A stretch of 38,461 nucleotides of DNA from Clostridia bacterium (lineage in GTDB: Bacteria > Bacillota > Clostridia > Christensenellales > UMGS416), in assembly GCA_016938675.1 (NCBI GenBank), contig JAFGUF010000020.1:1-38461 (forward strand), written 5' to 3'. The notes beneath the pieces were generated by a model, which saw only the letters and a program-made list of their open reading frames with translations, was not told the DNA's origin and ran no database searches. The translations under genes were made by a program, and so were the position numbers. Shown piece by piece: positions 3,474 to 33,746 of this stretch. The first letter of the stretch is position 1, and each line of letters begins with the position of its first letter.

Positions 3474-4388
3474 ATGCGATATCCGAATATGCTTCCGAAA
3501 ACTTTATTACTTAAAGCAGGTAATTATATTTATGATTTCGGAAGAGATATTGATATCGCTCTATATGAATATTATTTCAAAAAATCACATCCATCAAAAG
3601 TAATCAACGAGCTGATAAAATATTCTAATCTCGACGGCGGGTTCGGCAAAGGCCTGGAGCTTGATTTTATGTATCAGGGTTCCACGCCTTTATCCACTGC
3701 CATAGCTCTTGATATTTTCCGCAGGCTAAACATCTTTTCAAATAACCATCTTACTCTTGAAGCTCTTGAATACCTCTCATCGGTAAAAAATTACAGCGAC
3801 TCATGGGTATGCATTACAAGCGAAGTTAACAATTTCCCCAGAGCTTCCTGGTGGGAGTACAAGCCAATCCTGAAAGAAACATATACATTGAATCCCACTG
3901 CTGAAATTATTGGATACTTTTATCTTTTCGGCGGAGGAGTATATAGGAATACTGTCCATCAGATGCTGGAAAGGTGCTATTCTTATCTTCTGCATCCTGA
4001 AAACGGAAATGAGATGCACGAGTTGATATGCTTAATGCGAATGGTAAGGATGCTGCCGCCGAGCACAGCATCAAAATTTACCAGATTCCTGCGCCCTCGT
4101 CTAAACAATGCCCTGTGCTTTGATACAAAAAAATACGACACATACGTCTTTACACCGCTGCATGTTTTCGAGTCGCCCAGTGACCCGATGTATGAAATAT
4201 TCAGAAATCAAATTGAGGAAAATCTCGATTATATAATTGAGTCCCAGAATCCTGATGGCTCATGGAATGTGCCTTGGCACTGGGAAAGAGATGAGCACGT
4301 TTTTGACAAGCAGTTTCCGCTTATCGCTGCCCACATAACGCTCGAAAATATTATTCGCCTTAAGGCTTTTAGCAGGCTCTCTGTCTAG
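3474..4388 (+). CDS. Terpenoid-cyclase / prenyltransferase alpha-alpha-toroid-like protein
   Basis: This 304-residue protein of unknown function carries repeat motifs of the squalene-cyclase/prenyltransferase toroid fold: SNLDGGFGKGLELDF at about residues 51-65 and SQNPDGSWNVPWHW at about 257-270, the latter a QW-type repeat. The catalytic DxDD of class II terpene cyclases is not visible, so a binding or structural role is as likely as catalysis. There is no signal peptide or membrane segment. It starts 6 bp after the mreB-family stop, implying co-transcription and perhaps a cell-shape role. Its stop codon overlaps the stop of the convergent tyrA. The fold is supported by motifs; the function is not. 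Confidence 0.6.
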   Translation: MRYPNMLPKTLLLKAGNYIYDFGRDIDIALYEYYFKKSHPSKVINELIKYSNLDGGFGKGLELDFMYQGSTPLSTAIALDIFRRLNIFSNNHLTLEALEYLSSVKNYSDSWVCITSEVNNFPRASWWEYKPILKETYTLNPTAEIIGYFYLFGGGVYRNTVHQMLERCYSYLLHPENGNEMHELICLMRMVRMLPPSTASKFTRFLRPRLNNALCFDTKKYDTYVFTPLHVFESPSDPMYEIFRNQIEENLDYIIESQNPDGSWNVPWHWERDEHVFDKQFPLIAAHITLENIIRLKAFSRLSV

Positions 4389-5257
4389 CTTTTCTTTATT
4401 TCGTGCACGCTTTCTCTCATCTGTGCTGCCTTTTTCATTCTGTCTCTCATCTTCTCTGTATCCGAATCGCTTATTAATTCCTCCAGCTCCAGAAGCCCTT
4501 TGCGCAGAGCCGCTATTTCATCTACCAGCATATCCTTGTTTTCATTGAATAGCTCGCTCCACATTTCGTCGTTTATCATGGCAACTCTCGTTACATCCCT
4601 GAAGCTGCCTGCCGAGAATTCATCTACGTTTCTCTCCCCTGCACACAGCATGTAGGCAACAGCAAGTACGTGAGGCAATTGGCTTGTATATGCTATCAGC
4701 TCGTCATGGTTACGCGCGGAAGACTCCACTATCTGCCCTGCACCCAGTGCCATAGCAAACTCCTTAACCAAAGCTTTGCCTTCAGAATCTTTTTCATCAA
4801 CTATATATTTGCAGCCCAAAAACAGATCGCTTGTACTGCAGTCAAACCCTTTGTGTTCTCTGCCCGCCATCGGATGTCCGCCGACAAATAGCACACCTTC
4901 AGGGAGCAGCATTGGTATCGTATCAATAACTTCCCTCTTTACTCCACATATATCAGTCACTATGCAGCCATCCTTAAGGAATTTTCCGTTATCTCTTATG
5001 AATTTTATTGCCTGTGCGGGATATAATGATATTACAACTAAGTCGGCGTCAAAGAGCGCTTCTTGTGCGTTATCTGTTGCATAATCAGCCAACTTTAGAT
5101 TTTTAATTTTTTTCAGAACTTCAATGTCATTATCAAGTGCTGATATTTTCTTCGGCCTTTTTTCGCTTCCTGCCAATGACTTCAGGATAGAACCCCCCAT
5201 AAGCCCCGTACCCACAATAGCCATATTCGTCTCTTTAAGCTGCAAGCTTATTTTCAT
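4385..5257 (-). CDS. tyrA: Prephenate dehydrogenase
   Basis: This NAD(P)-dependent enzyme oxidatively decarboxylates prephenate to 4-hydroxyphenylpyruvate in tyrosine synthesis. The Rossmann motif GTGLMGGS lies near residue 17. GGHPMAGREHKGF near residue 126 and SFRDVTRVA near residue 218 match conserved active-site segments of the family. At 290 residues it is a single-domain form with no C-terminal ACT domain, so feedback by tyrosine through that domain is not expected. A GAGGG site lies 9 nt before the ATG. A TATAAT at 5319-5324 on the minus strand could be its -10, but the -35 is poor, so read-through from the ABC operon upstream is also possible. Confidence 0.88.
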   Translation of the reverse strand: MKISLQLKETNMAIVGTGLMGGSILKSLAGSEKRPKKISALDNDIEVLKKIKNLKLADYATDNAQEALFDADLVVISLYPAQAIKFIRDNGKFLKDGCIVTDICGVKREVIDTIPMLLPEGVLFVGGHPMAGREHKGFDCSTSDLFLGCKYIVDEKDSEGKALVKEFAMALGAGQIVESSARNHDELIAYTSQLPHVLAVAYMLCAGERNVDEFSAGSFRDVTRVAMINDEMWSELFNENKDMLVDEIAALRKGLLELEELISDSDTEKMRDRMKKAAQMRESVHEIKKS

Positions 5258-21463: not shown

Positions 21464-21536
21464 ATTATCTTCACCTCACCGATACAATATATTATTATAT
21501 AGATAACTAATTAAACTATAATATATTAATATATAT

Positions 21537-21571
21537 ATAATATCACTAAAATATAAATAATATCACTAAAA
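21537..21571 (+). repeat. Two 15-bp direct repeats in 20-bp register
   Basis: ATAATATCACTAAAA occurs at 21537-21551 and again at 21557-21571, exactly 20 bp apart, upstream of the metallo-hydrolase promoter. The near-two-turn spacing suggests a binding site for a dimeric regulator, but the region is AT-rich and chance duplication is possible. Confidence 0.5.
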
Positions 21572-24545: not shown

Positions 24546-25748
24546 ATGAATAATTTAACGCTAAACGAAAAAAAGGCTTTCTATGTCCTCGTCGGCATAT
24601 TTGTATTGTTTGTATTTGAATATACTTTGTTTGATTTGAGAGTAATCTCATCAAACCTAGAGGATATTATAAGTATATTCATACTCGGTGCGATAGGCAT
24701 GTATGTCTATATTCAGCCGCGAGCAATACAAAAAACCAGGAATCGCCTGGCAGGGTACTACATAGCATGGCTTTTAGTCTGCGGCGCTGTATACATGATT
24801 TTGTACTTTGGATGCGGTTTTATGTTTGGTTTCGGGATGAGCCCGTATAAAAGAAGCGCTACAGGCATAATAACAAATGTACTTATCTTCGGAAGCATAA
24901 TAGTACTAAAGGAATGGATAAGGAATTTTGTAATAAATAAATCGGAAAGGCACCTTGCGATAATATTCGGCGCAGCAATAGTGCTGATGTACACGGCAAT
25001 CGAAGTTAACATAATAGATTTGCTTAGTGCACGCTCCGTAGAAGAGTTTACAATAGGATTAAGCGAGAAATTGCTTCCTGTACTTGCTCTTAATATATTT
25101 ATGACATACGTTTGTTATGTGGCAGGCTTTCTTCCGGCAATGGCGTATATGCTTGTTGTAAATGTGCCAATCTGGTTTTTCAATAGCCTTCCCAATCTCG
25201 AATGGATTGTTGTGGCAGTGCTGGGTGTAGCTTTTCCTTTAATAGCATTAGTTGCTTTGATAGAAACAGTGCACCACACGACTACAAGGAAGTCGCTGAA
25301 AAGCAAGAAAATAAAGTCTGATCCAAAAACAGGAAACGTTCTCGTGTGGATATTTGTAGGAATTTTCTGTATAGTAGTTGCTTTCTTCACAGCTGGGCTG
25401 CTAAACGTCTTCCCCACGGTTCTCGTCTCCGGCAGTATGAGCCCCTCAATCAACAGAGGCGACGTGGTATTAATAAAAAAAATAAGTGAAGACGACGAAA
25501 TATATCTGAATGATGTTGTCATATACAACGCTGGGGAATTCGACGTTGTGCACAGAGTAGTTGAAATATACGAAGAAAAAGGAACTACGAAATATATAAC
25601 AAAAGGCGATGACAACGAGCTGCGCGATAAGCTAAGCATTGAAATGAAAAATATAGGCGGGGTTGTAATAGCGAGAATACCTTACCTAGGGCTGCCGAGG
25701 CTGCTGCTTGAATCAGGCGAATATGAGAGCGAAATCAACGGCGGATAA
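24546..25748 (+). CDS. sipW: ER-type (SipW-like) signal peptidase I with long polytopic N-terminus
   Basis: This 400-residue membrane protease should cleave signal peptides of the two exported proteins downstream. The catalytic Ser is S297 in VSGSMSP. The usual bacterial Lys is replaced by His336 in DVVHRVV, with Asp355/356 in KGDDN, which is the Ser-His-Asp arrangement of archaeal/ER and Bacillus SipW enzymes. About 250 residues precede the final pre-catalytic helix (near 268-290) and form roughly seven to eight extra membrane helices. SipW itself is about 190 residues, so this N-terminal membrane domain is unusual. A DUF5305 gene follows after 35 nt. Confidence 0.88.
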   Translation: MNNLTLNEKKAFYVLVGIFVLFVFEYTLFDLRVISSNLEDIISIFILGAIGMYVYIQPRAIQKTRNRLAGYYIAWLLVCGAVYMILYFGCGFMFGFGMSPYKRSATGIITNVLIFGSIIVLKEWIRNFVINKSERHLAIIFGAAIVLMYTAIEVNIIDLLSARSVEEFTIGLSEKLLPVLALNIFMTYVCYVAGFLPAMAYMLVVNVPIWFFNSLPNLEWIVVAVLGVAFPLIALVALIETVHHTTTRKSLKSKKIKSDPKTGNVLVWIFVGIFCIVVAFFTAGLLNVFPTVLVSGSMSPSINRGDVVLIKKISEDDEIYLNDVVIYNAGEFDVVHRVVEIYEEKGTTKYITKGDDNELRDKLSIEMKNIGGVVIARIPYLGLPRLLLESGEYESEINGG

Positions 25749-25783
25749 TAAAATAAAGAAGATGATATTTTAGGTGTGAAAAA

Positions 25784-26812
25784 ATGATAACCGGAAAAAG
25801 AACAAAAACCTTAATAGCGATTATACTGTGGCTTCTAGCGGGGCTTGCGTTCTTGTTCTCTCTTATGCAGGTGCTGTTCCCTGATGAGAAAACAGTGGAA
25901 AATGCGGTATTTGTAGCAGACACGGTTTCGAGCATTGACTATAGTATTCGGCTTAAGGACACACCCATATATGACAGGGCAAAGGACGCTGACCCGGCTA
26001 AATATTATGTGCTTCCTTTTACAGATTACATAACTGTAGACTGTAAGTATACATATAACGGCCAGAATGCGGCTAATATTTCAGTAAGCAGCTACGTTAC
26101 GGCTTTTCTCGTGTCATACATTGATGAAGGAAACGAAGAAGTAATCGTCTGGAAGAAGGAATACGCTCTTTCGGCGCTTGAGACAAACGAATCAACAGAG
26201 AGTGAAATATCCGGAGAGAAGCAAATTCGCATTGAATTAGACGAATATACTTCATTGATTGACCAGATATACGACACCTACAGTTTTAAAACTAACTACT
26301 ATTTGATGGTTTTATACAGTACGGAGTTCACTGCTGATTATGCCGGCAAAACTGTAAGTAAAATACAGCAGCCTTATATAAGAATTGACTTGGACGAGCT
26401 GCTTTACGGAATACAAGAGAATAATCTATCCAAGGGCAAGCTGGAAATAACGCAGCAATCAATTGTTGATGGGGAAATCAGCTGGGATGCCGTCATATTG
26501 GGAGGAATCATTTTTCTCTTCCTTGCGGCCTTGGCAATATTGGTTCCAAAAAAGATGCTATCCTCGGCTGACACCTTAGGCGAAGCAAGGCAGATAAGGC
26601 AGATAAATATTAAATATGGAGATAGGATAGTCCATATCAAGGAAAAGCCTGCTCTAGACCATAAGGCAATTATGGTGGCAGAGATGGAAGACGTAGTAAA
26701 GATTGCTGATGAAATCGGCCAGCCGATATTCAGCATCGGAGTTGATACAGAAGTATACTATTACGTAGTTAACAATAACACTATGTATTATGTAGTAGTT
26801 AAGAATGTATAA
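25784..26812 (+). CDS. DUF5305-family membrane protein of the SipW cassette
   Basis: This 342-residue protein has an N-terminal membrane helix (about 9-30), an extracytoplasmic beta-rich domain of about 200 residues (it contains SIDYSIRLKDTPIYD and later an ITQQSIVDGEISW segment), a second helix (about 232-252), and a cytoplasmic C-terminal domain of about 90 residues. This layout fits DUF5305, a family of unknown function often found beside ER-type signal peptidases in Firmicutes and archaea. It could hold or guide substrates near the peptidase. The start follows TAGGTG. The cytoplasmic tail could regulate the complex; that is inference. Confidence 0.75.
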   Translation: MITGKRTKTLIAIILWLLAGLAFLFSLMQVLFPDEKTVENAVFVADTVSSIDYSIRLKDTPIYDRAKDADPAKYYVLPFTDYITVDCKYTYNGQNAANISVSSYVTAFLVSYIDEGNEEVIVWKKEYALSALETNESTESEISGEKQIRIELDEYTSLIDQIYDTYSFKTNYYLMVLYSTEFTADYAGKTVSKIQQPYIRIDLDELLYGIQENNLSKGKLEITQQSIVDGEISWDAVILGGIIFLFLAALAILVPKKMLSSADTLGEARQIRQINIKYGDRIVHIKEKPALDHKAIMVAEMEDVVKIADEIGQPIFSIGVDTEVYYYVVNNNTMYYVVVKNV

Positions 26813-26835
26813 AGGCGCAGAATTAGGATAAGGAA

Positions 26836-27450
26836 ATGAAAAAAGTAGCAGTAATTTTAATATTATTAGTTGTCCTGCTCTCCATGGGCAGTGCCTATGC
26901 AAGGTGGACAGATTCCACATCTGTTACTATTACTGCGCGCAACGCAATTATAGTGGCAGGGATTACAGGAAGAAGTTCAGGCACAAACAAGATTAACTAC
27001 ACTGACCAGGGCGGAGCACCAAGTACTTCTAACCCTTATCTCAATATTACGGAGACTATATCTCAGTTTAAGTTTAAGCATGGCGGTGCGAACAACTATT
27101 ACGTTACATACACAATTACTAATACTGGGCAGGTTCCGGTTACTCTGGACGGGCTCTCAATATTAAACAAGTCTGTAGATTATTCATCCCCTGTTTATAC
27201 AGACACAATAAGAATAGAATATTCACTAAGCAATCCTTTTGCGGGATATAGTGCGAATATATTGGTCACGGATTTTGATTCCCACACGGGTGTAAGCTTT
27301 CCAAACAGCCAGAATAATATACTGGGCGTTGGCGAATACTGCACACTGGTAGTTACATATGACCGGCTAGAAACCGGTGATAAAGGCATCGATAAAACGG
27401 AACTAACAATAACGATTACCACACAGGTATCATGTTCTGTTTCAAGATAA
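26836..27450 (+). CDS. SipW-dependent exported protein, TasA/CalY-like (first copy)
   Basis: This 204-residue exported protein carries a SipW-type signal: MKK, a long Val/Leu core, and MGSAYA at the cleavage site (after about residue 22), followed by RWTDS. The mature part is beta-rich, with VTYTITNTGQVPVTLDGLSI typical of immunoglobulin-like TasA/camelysin folds. Such proteins form surface or biofilm fibres in Bacillus. Its ribosome site (AGGATAAGGA) lies close to the ATG and looks weaker than that of the next gene. One cysteine (Cys201, SCSVSR) lies near the C-terminus. Confidence 0.8.
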   Translation: MKKVAVILILLVVLLSMGSAYARWTDSTSVTITARNAIIVAGITGRSSGTNKINYTDQGGAPSTSNPYLNITETISQFKFKHGGANNYYVTYTITNTGQVPVTLDGLSILNKSVDYSSPVYTDTIRIEYSLSNPFAGYSANILVTDFDSHTGVSFPNSQNNILGVGEYCTLVVTYDRLETGDKGIDKTELTITITTQVSCSVSR

Positions 27451-27480
27451 AAATCATTTAATTTACTTTAGGAGGCGAAA

Positions 27481-28116
27481 ATGAAAAAAAGGAACGTTGT
27501 AGTAGTTGTATTGGTTATTGCCCTGCTTTTAATGGGCAGTGCATATGCACTTTGGACAGATTCAGTAACAGTTAATGTTACAGCACAGTCAGCCACAATG
27601 GATGTATTGATTAATTATAGGTCAGTTTCAGTTGCACCCACTGGCTCACTTCCGGTAGTAACAGATATTGGAACACCAAGCCCCGCAGTTATAGACGCTG
27701 CAAATACTACTGATGCAGTCCAAGAAACAATCACTAACTTCATCCCCGGCGACACAGTTACTCTTACCTACAGAATTATCAACGACGGAACCATTGATGT
27801 ATTATTGACAGGATTCAATATCTCATTCGCAGGTACATCAGTACAGGATCTGCAGGCTGATACACACCTGACATGGACAATGACAGGATTCGTAGGCGGC
27901 TTAGCAACTGACACAGCAACAGGAAGCGGACAGCTAAATGCAATCGCAACAACTGTAGACGTAGAAGCTTCAGGAGCCGTAATCGAAATTCCGGCAGGCA
28001 CAGCTGATTATTGTGAGCTTACACTTGTTTTCTACATTAATGACAGCACCGGAATACCTTATTCAACAGTAAAAGAAACTGTATTCACAGTAGAACCTGT
28101 TTTCAGACAGAACTAA
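27481..28116 (+). CDS. SipW-dependent exported protein, TasA/CalY-like (second copy)
   Basis: This 211-residue paralogue has almost the same signal peptide (MGSAYA then LWTDSVTVNVTAQSA). The beta-rich mature part includes DTVTLTYRIINDGTIDVLLTGFNIS, aligning in style with the first copy, but the remainder diverges. It lacks the C-terminal cysteine of the first copy but has one in DYCELTLVF, matching EYCTLVVTY there. TTAGGAGG gives it a strong ribosome site, suggesting it is the more abundant fibre component. It ends the cassette at a strong terminator. Confidence 0.8.
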   Translation: MKKRNVVVVVLVIALLLMGSAYALWTDSVTVNVTAQSATMDVLINYRSVSVAPTGSLPVVTDIGTPSPAVIDAANTTDAVQETITNFIPGDTVTLTYRIINDGTIDVLLTGFNISFAGTSVQDLQADTHLTWTMTGFVGGLATDTATGSGQLNAIATTVDVEASGAVIEIPAGTADYCELTLVFYINDSTGIPYSTVKETVFTVEPVFRQN

Positions 28117-28142: not shown

Positions 28143-28173
28143 AAAAGAAACATCAGGTATGTTTCTTTTTTTT
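28143..28173 (+). terminator. Terminator of the SipW cassette
   Basis: AAAAGAAACAT (28143-28153) pairs perfectly with ATGTTTCTTTT (28159-28169) around CAGGT, followed by more T residues. Confidence 0.85.
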
Positions 28174-32121: not shown

Positions 32122-32141
32122 GTATAGAATTGTATAGAATT
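32122..32141 (+). repeat. Tandem 10-bp direct repeat
   Basis: GTATAGAATT occurs twice without a gap at 32122-32131 and 32132-32141, just upstream of the inverted repeat and extended -10. It covers the region where a -35 would be and could be an activator site. Confidence 0.5.
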
Positions 32142-32174
32142 ACCTGCTATAATAAGGTATACTTTATAGCAGGT
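32142..32174. promoter_or_regulatory. Palindromic operator over the promoter of the LuxR-type gene
   Basis: ACCTGCTATAA (32142-32152) and TTATAGCAGGT (32164-32174) are an exact 11-bp inverted repeat. The left arm contains the extended -10 TGCTATAAT (32145-32153) and the right arm contains the ribosome site AGGT just before the ATG at 32181. It can act as a DNA operator or, if transcribed from upstream, as an RNA hairpin hiding the ribosome site. No T tract follows, so it is not a terminator. Confidence 0.6.
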
Positions 32175-32180
32175 GACTCT

Positions 32181-33104
32181 ATGATAAAAATATTATTGAT
32201 ACTTATAGCTCACATGATAACCTTTTCAATATCCATGCTTCCCGGCATTATGGTAGTATTTTATAAAAGGCTGAATTTAGGGTATAAATATGATTATCAG
32301 TCAATGCTGCGACTGGTTACAACTGCTGTCATACTTATAATCATATCTGTCTATAAAGTTATATACATAGCAGTCTATTCTCATTCGGTTTCTCCTGAAA
32401 TAAACTCGAATATTTCGCTTTTTTTCGCCCTCACCCTGCTGGTATGCACATTTTTAAGCACATACTTCATAGTAGACAGAGCAATTATTCATTTCAAGAG
32501 AAAGCCTCGCAGGCTGATACTTAACGTCACTGCCGGAATAACGATACTGCTGGCCATATTTACTATCTTTAAATTGGTTTCCAGGTCTGTCGGCAGTCAC
32601 TTCAATTATATTGATTTTGCAATTCATTATATGTTCCCCGTTTTAACAGGCGTGCTTTCCTTCGCAGGAATTATTTCCCTTGTTTTTTACAAGCGTGCTA
32701 GCAAACAGGGAATTATATATTCCTATATATTTGTTCTTAGCATACCATTTATAGTTCTGGATTTGATTTTCGCAGATAAAAGCCAATACCTGCTTACATG
32801 TATCCCCTATATTGCTTTTACGGTAGCTGTATTCATTGACGTATTCAGCGGCAGCGAAAGGCTGAGCACCGGAATCAATGAAAAAGAGGACTCCTTGGCG
32901 GGGAAATACGATCTTACGGAAAGGGAACTGGAGGTCTATCAGCTTGCATCAAAAGGGCTATCAAATCAGGAAATAAGCGAGCAGTTATTCGTGAGCGTCC
33001 ACACAGTGAAAACCCACCTTCAGCATATCTTTACAAAGCTGAACATTAATACAAAATATCAGCTGATTAATTTCTCTAAAGAAAATGAAAAAGATGAAGA
33101 CTAG
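32181..33104 (+). CDS. Membrane-anchored LuxR-type regulator
   Basis: This 307-residue protein has seven or so hydrophobic helices in its first 230 residues (starting ILLILIAHMITFSIS) and a C-terminal LuxR/GerE helix-turn-helix (LTERELEVYQLASKGLSNQEISEQLFVSVHTVKTHLQHIFTKL, about 250-290). It should sense a membrane or external signal and bind DNA directly from the membrane. An upstream in-frame ATG at 32130 lies before the promoter, so ATG 32181 with AGGTGA upstream is preferred. It follows the RND gene by 73 bp. Its stop codon directly abuts the stop of the convergent lrp gene. Confidence 0.82.
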   Translation: MIKILLILIAHMITFSISMLPGIMVVFYKRLNLGYKYDYQSMLRLVTTAVILIIISVYKVIYIAVYSHSVSPEINSNISLFFALTLLVCTFLSTYFIVDRAIIHFKRKPRRLILNVTAGITILLAIFTIFKLVSRSVGSHFNYIDFAIHYMFPVLTGVLSFAGIISLVFYKRASKQGIIYSYIFVLSIPFIVLDLIFADKSQYLLTCIPYIAFTVAVFIDVFSGSERLSTGINEKEDSLAGKYDLTERELEVYQLASKGLSNQEISEQLFVSVHTVKTHLQHIFTKLNINTKYQLINFSKENEKDED

Positions 33105-33542: not shown

Positions 33543-33746
33543 ATTTTGTACCTGCACTTATTATTATTAAGCTATATATTTAATTGATATTAATTTTGTA
33601 AAGTATATATATGAATTATAAATTATTTTAACTATATTTTCAATAAATACTTTATCTTTTTTAAATAAAATATATAATGAAAAAGCAAAGATATGGAGCA
33701 CATGCATATCTAATTGTATAATTTTTACTCTCTAAAATATTTTTTT
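33543..33746. other. AT-rich intergenic region with a possible small transcript
   Basis: Between lrp and manA lie about 315 bp without a gene. TATAAT occurs at 33673-33678 and 33717-33722 on the plus strand, and an orphan terminator closes the region at 33747. That combination allows a short plus-strand RNA, but neither -10 has a clear -35, and no reading frame with a ribosome site is present. Confidence 0.3.

Follow-up and report, generated by a model that had tools for sequence, protein, structure and literature searches.

A SipW and DUF5305 gene cassette from a Clostridia bacterium as a probable secretion operon for surface fibres

The DNA considered here is a stretch of 38,461 nucleotides from a Clostridia bacterium (Christensenellales; UMGS416; contig JAFGUF010000020.1 of assembly GCA_016938675.1), referred to below as the window. 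At 24546-28116 it carries a cassette of four genes, in which a SipW-type signal peptidase of the endoplasmic reticulum (ER) type is followed by a membrane protein of the DUF5305 family and by two small exported proteins. The initial annotation described this locus as a self-contained secretion and fibre cassette, where tapA is missing and DUF5305 takes its place. The question raised by the locus is what a protein family without an assigned function does between a specialised peptidase and its likely substrates. The answer considered probable is that the cassette is a compact secretion operon for surface fibres assembled by donor-strand exchange, in which DUF5305, as a membrane partner of SipW, would link cleavage to the step that starts or anchors a fibre.

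Pairing of DUF5305 with the extended SipW peptidase

The peptidase (P0001) exceeded the cut-off of the TIGR02228 sigpep_I_arch model (80.2 bits, cut-off 51.85) and failed that of the Bacillus SipW equivalog NF046067 (59.4 bits, cut-off 190). Its closest solved relatives are SEC11C and SEC11A, and the catalytic residues were aligned to both. In an alignment of 39 extended homologues, all have Ser297 and His336 (the latter in place of Lys) and 38 have Asp355; at position 361 there is Asp in 36 of them and Glu in three. Together with the TIGR02228 score, this alignment confirms the proposed ER-type peptidase with a Ser297-His336-Asp centre. The catalytic Ser is preceded by a stretch of ~290 residues that includes several hydrophobic segments, and in this region G91, R126, P178 and P216 are invariant in all 39 homologues. 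A Pfam scan of 17 extended SipWs gave no common N-terminal family beyond the peptidase ones, apart from one weak match in a single member, and viral contigs searched with the SipW alignment yielded no relative. The extended SipW is a distinct SipW branch with a large unnamed membrane extension. P0001 is the sole TIGR02228 match in the genome, and a canonical signal peptidase I is encoded on a separate contig (156.4 bits); the cassette enzyme is therefore a second, specialised peptidase.

The second gene product (P0002) matched DUF5305 (PF17231) with 87.9 bits against a cut-off of 29, as had been proposed. To describe its distribution, two samples were used. DUF5305 was found over the cut-off in 25 of 391 genomes of the class sample, at 28 places, and in 32 of 398 genomes of the phylum sample (own genome included), at 31 further places. 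L063 was left out of the counts because it lies below the cut-off. The 59 DUF5305 neighbourhoods (window included) were scored with a SipW profile; L047, near-identical to L046, was left out of the tree and residue counts only, and L081 (287.9 bits) was counted as full-length because it spans profile positions 10-381, the lines being drawn at 300 bits for the phylum count and at 280 bits for the tree. A full-length extended SipW of about 370-430 aa was present in 40 of the 59 loci. It lies on the DUF5305 strand in all 40, immediately upstream in 32, and at a spacing of at most 100 bp in 29, with 4029 bp as the largest gap. A partial peptidase was present in one locus (L100), and an S26-type peptidase other than the extended SipW, labelled here type II, in nine (L054, L058-L061, L107-L109 and L111); DUF5305 thus seems to have paired with more than one architecture of ER-type peptidase. 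Some type II peptidases, ~370-380 aa long, have their catalytic Ser close to the N terminus, and a response regulator often lies nearby. Beside the extended SipW of L105, a 598-aa DUF5305 open reading frame (~3902-4669) was observed, whose match to the family profile is split in two.

The reciprocal search of the 391 class genomes with the SipW profile (E<=1e-10) gave a match in 93 genomes. A full-length extended SipW was present in 19 of these, and every other listed match starts at profile position 213 or later. In 18 of the 19 genomes DUF5305 lies on the same strand within 3.4 kb of the extended SipW. The 19th gene (L068) is located on a 4.6-kb contig that ends ~0.76 kb past it, and the DUF5305 of this genome (G268) belongs to a type II locus on a different contig. 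Counted by genome, DUF5305 over the cut-off occurs in 19 of 19 class genomes with an extended SipW versus 6 of 372 others (Fisher p 2e-27), and in two of the 74 that have a short SipW only (G312 and G408, both type II). When named genome contigs were searched with four SipWs, four loci were obtained, all with DUF5305 directly downstream; L043 and L050 account for two of them, and the other two, from a Desulfotomaculum and a Bacillota metagenome-assembled genome, are new. No DUF5305 was found in 14 control genomes, four of which are archaea and represent the extent of archaeal coverage. Plasmids searched by tblastn gave no match, and a viral structure library gave nothing useful. DUF5305 is a regular membrane partner of the extended SipW type, conserved next to it in related genomes and mostly with such exported proteins nearby, as the initial annotation had expected; its check for conservation in relatives did not refute the cassette.

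The exported proteins and their predicted cleavage site

The two exported proteins were described initially as bearing matching signal peptides of the form MGSAYA-x-WTDS, which both their sequences (MGSAYARWTDS in P0003, MGSAYALWTDS in P0004) and their paralogy (BLASTP E 6e-9) bear out. The MGSAYA DNA pattern, with at most one mismatch, occurs at two sites in the 2.62-Mb genome, both in the cassette, and at none in the reversed control. P0004 exceeded the cut-off of the TasA/camelysin family PF12389 Peptidase_M73 (23.8 bits, cut-off 22.5), for which P0003 was unlisted at E up to 1. A profile (A5) of P0004, P0003 and seven relatives, all nine hand-picked as bearers of the motif, matched the archaeal fibre protein AbpX among PDB sequences (9sj2, E 2.7e-13; 9rhp, E 4.7e-8), with TasA at E 0.13-0.14. 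In this comparison residue 1 of AbpX (QWSETLSLS) aligns with the first residue past the predicted cut. Entry 9sj2 is probably the ABPx protein of Pyrodictium abyssi, which forms donor-strand-exchanged fibres (PMC11952670). In 9rhp the N-terminal 15 residues of AbpX are repeated at the C terminus, an arrangement read here as a donor-strand-complemented construct. The AlphaFold model of P0004 is a beta-sandwich, and its top Foldseek match among 350,542 PDB chains was the TasA fibre 8aur (E 2.5e-4). The profile match to AbpX and the fold match to TasA support the claim that TasA-like proteins are encoded beside SipW, and by sequence the exported proteins group with subunits of TasA fibres and archaeal bundling pili. 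A function of P0003 and P0004 in fibres or biofilm is suggested by this kinship.

Y22, A23 and W25 of the Y-A-x-W motif are invariant in the nine aligned exported proteins, and a cut after the Ala would place aromatic residues at P2 and P2'. In TasA the P2 residue is W and the P2' residue is F, and this protein is cut poorly by Escherichia coli LepB, whose verified substrates have an aromatic residue at P2' in 0 of 143 cases and Trp at P2 in 8 of 143; LepB processed a TasA fusion better once its P2 Trp had been exchanged (PMC10269814). Of 40 extended-SipW loci, 32 have a protein with the strict G..Y-A-x-W motif no farther than 4 kb from DUF5305 (L064 and L067 left out as copies of L043 and L050; L065 and L066 added). 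In the class set the strict motif occurs in 33 of 214 open reading frames within 4 kb versus 1 of 174 farther away, a strong control; in the phylum set, where the stretches end ~6 kb out, this control is weak (36 of 235 versus 5 of 77, p 0.052). The genome also encodes an orphan paralogue, P0005 (G000:C23:107515-108102, minus strand; L114/L116), which is 31% identical to P0004 (183 aligned columns). Its signal peptide ends in an ordinary way, without Y-A-x-W, and its neighbourhood contains neither SipW nor DUF5305, which fits the motif being tied to the extended SipW. The gene downstream of P0005 presumably encodes an MBOAT-like O-acyltransferase.

On the proposed mechanism, the extended SipW would cut P0003 and P0004 after Ala22 and Ala23, respectively, at a Y-A|x-W site resembling the TasA site that canonical signal peptidase I handles poorly. 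The cut would free an N-terminal segment (xWTDS...) as a donor strand, which could slot into the next subunit, so that P0003 and P0004 would polymerise into a fibre. DUF5305 would bind the extended SipW in the membrane, with its external beta-sandwich beside the active site, and might hold or present the nascent subunits at the peptidase, so that cleavage would be coupled to fibre initiation or anchoring.

The role of DUF5305 and competing explanations

Patristic distances of SipW and DUF5305 are highly correlated (r 0.90, 39 pairs; 0 of 2000 permutations as high), which favours the pairing. That this correlation ignores species relatedness is one of several points that weigh against the proposed operon. 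Nine of the 59 DUF5305 loci have no S26 peptidase. Five of them have less than ~720 bp of contig upstream (L038, L045, L094, L096 and L110), while L041, L056 and L062 lack one despite room on both sides, as does L106 with 3.1 kb upstream and 0.2 kb downstream. Among 61 genomes of near relatives (own, seven of the same family and 53 of the same order), DUF5305 over the cut-off occurs only in the own genome; three weak matches from this search, below the cut-off and in frames longer than 1000 aa, were dropped. Eight of the 40 extended-SipW loci (L051, L052, L053, L055, L057, L086, L089 and L098) have no strict-motif protein within 4 kb, some of them having Y-A-x-F or Y-A-x-L at that place, and the closest relatives have one exported protein without the Trp (e.g. 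L064 12933-13604). P0003 clears no Pfam or NCBIfam family cut-off and is silent in the SipW-substrate model TIGR04088, in which P0004 reaches 16.0 bits against a cut-off of 19; the hand-picking of the A5 members belongs here as well. The P0004 model is middling (pLDDT 68.4, pTM 0.60), with very low confidence for the putative donor region at residues 29-38, and unrelated carbohydrate-binding modules match it as well as the fibre proteins do: in the VIA comparison TasA reached Z 7.9 (root mean square deviation 3.2, 138 aligned) and AbpA 7.8 (4.5, 150), against 8.0 (3.7, 129) for TmCBM27. Because of this tie, the homology argument is carried by the AbpX sequence match. Finally, DUF5305 gave only chance-level mCherry matches among PDB sequences and no link to eukaryotic signal peptidase subunits. 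The fold matches of its ectodomain (RbmA, Z 9.6, deviation 3.3, 112 aligned; factor XIII, Z 9.1, 3.3, 116; the TMEM106B luminal domain first in Foldseek, E 1.1e-4) point to an Ig-like arrangement of a common kind rather than to ancestry.

In the model of P0002 (pLDDT 72.7, pTM 0.49), an external beta-sandwich is flanked on both sides by a transmembrane segment, and a cytosolic domain forms the C terminus. This architecture would also suit a protein that serves as the membrane base of the fibre, where the first subunit would insert its donor strand into the ectodomain and the fibre would be anchored with no direct contact of DUF5305 to SipW. The further surface genes at other loci point the same way: five SLH proteins and three sortases were recognised by Pfam among 121 of 224 listed neighbour proteins of extended-SipW loci, chosen by hand as likely cluster members, so that these tallies describe occurrence and not frequency. 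However, DUF5305 tracks the extended SipW in particular, being present in every class genome that has one and in two of the 74 with a short SipW only, and this makes a mere base rather unlikely. No similarity of the ectodomain to TasA, AbpX or other archaeal bundling pilus proteins was seen among the matches listed, which excludes nothing.

It was also considered that DUF5305 could be a sensor or regulator, whose ectodomain gauges export or fibre load and whose cytosolic domain signals to a two-component system. The cytosolic domain is conserved like the ectodomain (mean 1.90 versus 1.88 bits), and the same 121 neighbours include 12 histidine kinases and nine LuxR-type regulators. Nevertheless, the window locus keeps DUF5305 with neither kinase nor regulator in the cassette, and several extended-SipW loci have no response regulator in the fetched stretch according to a motif search that misses some, so this role is improbable. 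There is similarly little chance that P0003 and P0004 are ordinary secreted monomers, for instance camelysin-like, that form no fibre: the only Pfam match of P0004 over the cut-off is indeed to a 'camelysin metallo-endopeptidase' and its model resembles carbohydrate-binding modules, but the AbpX profile match takes in the N-terminal donor segment, and the TasA and CalY proteins of Bacillus cereus make filaments (PMC13082335).

Cassette organisation, known systems and significance

Table 1. Features of the cassette and its downstream hairpin, in window coordinates
Feature	Position	Strand	Parts and predicted sites	Basis
Extended SipW (P0001, 400 aa)	24546-25748	+	Multi-transmembrane N-terminal region ~1-260; last hydrophobic segment 260-296; ER-type (SEC11-like) catalytic domain with Ser297, His336, Asp355/Asp361	TIGR02228 match, catalytic residues aligned
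DUF5305 membrane protein (P0002, 342 aa)	25784-26812	+	Transmembrane 6-33; predicted beta-sandwich ectodomain 44-227; transmembrane 230-262; conserved cytosolic domain 263-342	PF17231 match
Exported protein 1 (P0003, 204 aa)	26836-27450	+	Predicted cut after Ala22 (SAYA|RWTDS)	Putative TasA/AbpX-type subunit
Exported protein 2 (P0004, 211 aa)	27481-28116	+	Predicted cut after Ala23 (SAYA|LWTDS)	Putative TasA/AbpX-type subunit
Terminator-like A/T-rich hairpin, then T run	28144-28168	+		Fold energy and shuffle test

The four genes (Table 1) are packed head to tail on one strand with gaps of 35, 23 and 30 bp, in agreement with the initial description. The 'strong terminator' proposed to close them is present as an A/T-rich hairpin with a 10-bp stem (-7.3 kcal/mol) and a T run behind it. 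Its strength is only moderately supported, since the 71-nt stretch containing it has a fold z of -2.6, with 6 of 200 shuffles equally good, and a terminator scan requiring at least three G-C pairs did not list it. The genes flanking the cassette resemble unrelated lipoproteins. Horizontal transfer of the cassette gains no support from composition (GC 0.404 versus 0.394 for the window), although the distribution is patchy. Elsewhere in the window, a membrane protein with a C-terminal LuxR-type helix-turn-helix, recognised by eye, is encoded downstream of an RND-type transporter gene (32130-33104, plus strand) and has no seen tie to the cassette, and two short AT-rich intergenic tandem repeat arrays lie at 21518-21571 and 33560-33644 (periods 20 and 29).

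The closest relatives of the window in both trees (L043, L049 and L050) share a longer gene order. A probable PilT-like ATPase and a probable sensor kinase come first, then SipW and DUF5305, after them four genes for exported or membrane proteins, and finally a regulator on the opposite strand; the ATPase and kinase calls are based on position, size and family tally. The 121 chosen neighbours include three ATPases of the T2SSE/PilT type. The probable ATPase (L043 11937-12968, L049 3545-4606, L050 3486-4544) stands upstream of the kinase-SipW-DUF5305 block, in a fibre locus that is not of type IV. In relatives a two-component system and further exported proteins are often encoded as well, and the four genes of the window therefore look like a reduced form, which makes their description as self-contained doubtful.

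The absence of tapA was confirmed over the whole genome: the best match to the TapA model TIGR04087 reached 15.3 bits against a cut-off of 80 and is interrupted by stops, so a TapA under another name was rejected. The replacement of TapA by DUF5305, in turn, was not supported. DUF5305, a protein with two transmembrane segments and a cytosolic part, does not resemble TapA, and TapA is missing elsewhere too. It is not conserved within Bacillus (PMC10151520), B. cereus has none and needs the secreted chaperone-like CapP for a system in which TasA and CalY form filaments (PMC13082335), and the Clostridium perfringens operon is sipW-bsaABCRSD (PMC7395162). Since other SipW/TasA systems do without TapA, a TapA-less SipW system is not new and the missing tapA is unremarkable. 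With tapA-sipW-tasA of Bacillus subtilis the cassette shares a dedicated ER-type signal peptidase, probable TasA-type substrates and aromatic residues flanking the predicted cut site; it differs in having no TapA, a SipW with a large N-terminal multi-transmembrane extension, DUF5305 and two subunits. The C. perfringens operon likewise belongs to an anaerobe, begins with sipW, encodes a secreted polymer protein and has a two-component system, as do many relatives of the window locus. With 1.4 kb, its sipW-bsaA mRNA would leave room for a short SipW only, unlike the extended one here. The system of B. cereus (sipW, tasA/calY, capP) resembles the proposed one in being TapA-less, SipW-dependent and built of two subunits, but CapP is secreted and processed by SipW, whereas DUF5305 is a membrane protein with two transmembrane segments (PMC13082335). 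AbpX is the closest solved relative of the exported proteins by sequence, as AbpA (7ueg) is among the listed folds; donor-strand exchange, proposed for the cassette as well, is the common feature, and the difference is that AbpX and AbpA are archaeal.

A broader proposal, put forward tentatively and with some doubt, is that DUF5305 and the extended SipW form a dedicated two-subunit bacterial signal peptidase complex that would cut pilin-like substrates and hand the donor strand into the growing fibre, as a general, so far unrecognised fibre platform of anaerobic Bacillota parallel to TapA and CapP. By analogy, such a complex might be likened to the eukaryotic one, in which Sec11 is joined by SPCS1, SPCS2 and SPCS3 (PMC13385932). 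No mention of DUF5305 was found in one literature library from which subscription papers are missing, and a similar gene beside an archaeal SipW may already be described in work on archaeal bundling pili, so priority is uncertain.

Summarizing, DUF5305, so far a family without an assigned function, gains a specific partner and pathway that can be tested, and the fibre subunits of anaerobic Bacillota are linked to archaeal bundling pili. Removal of the signal peptide and assembly of the fibre may, in these bacteria, be physically coupled.

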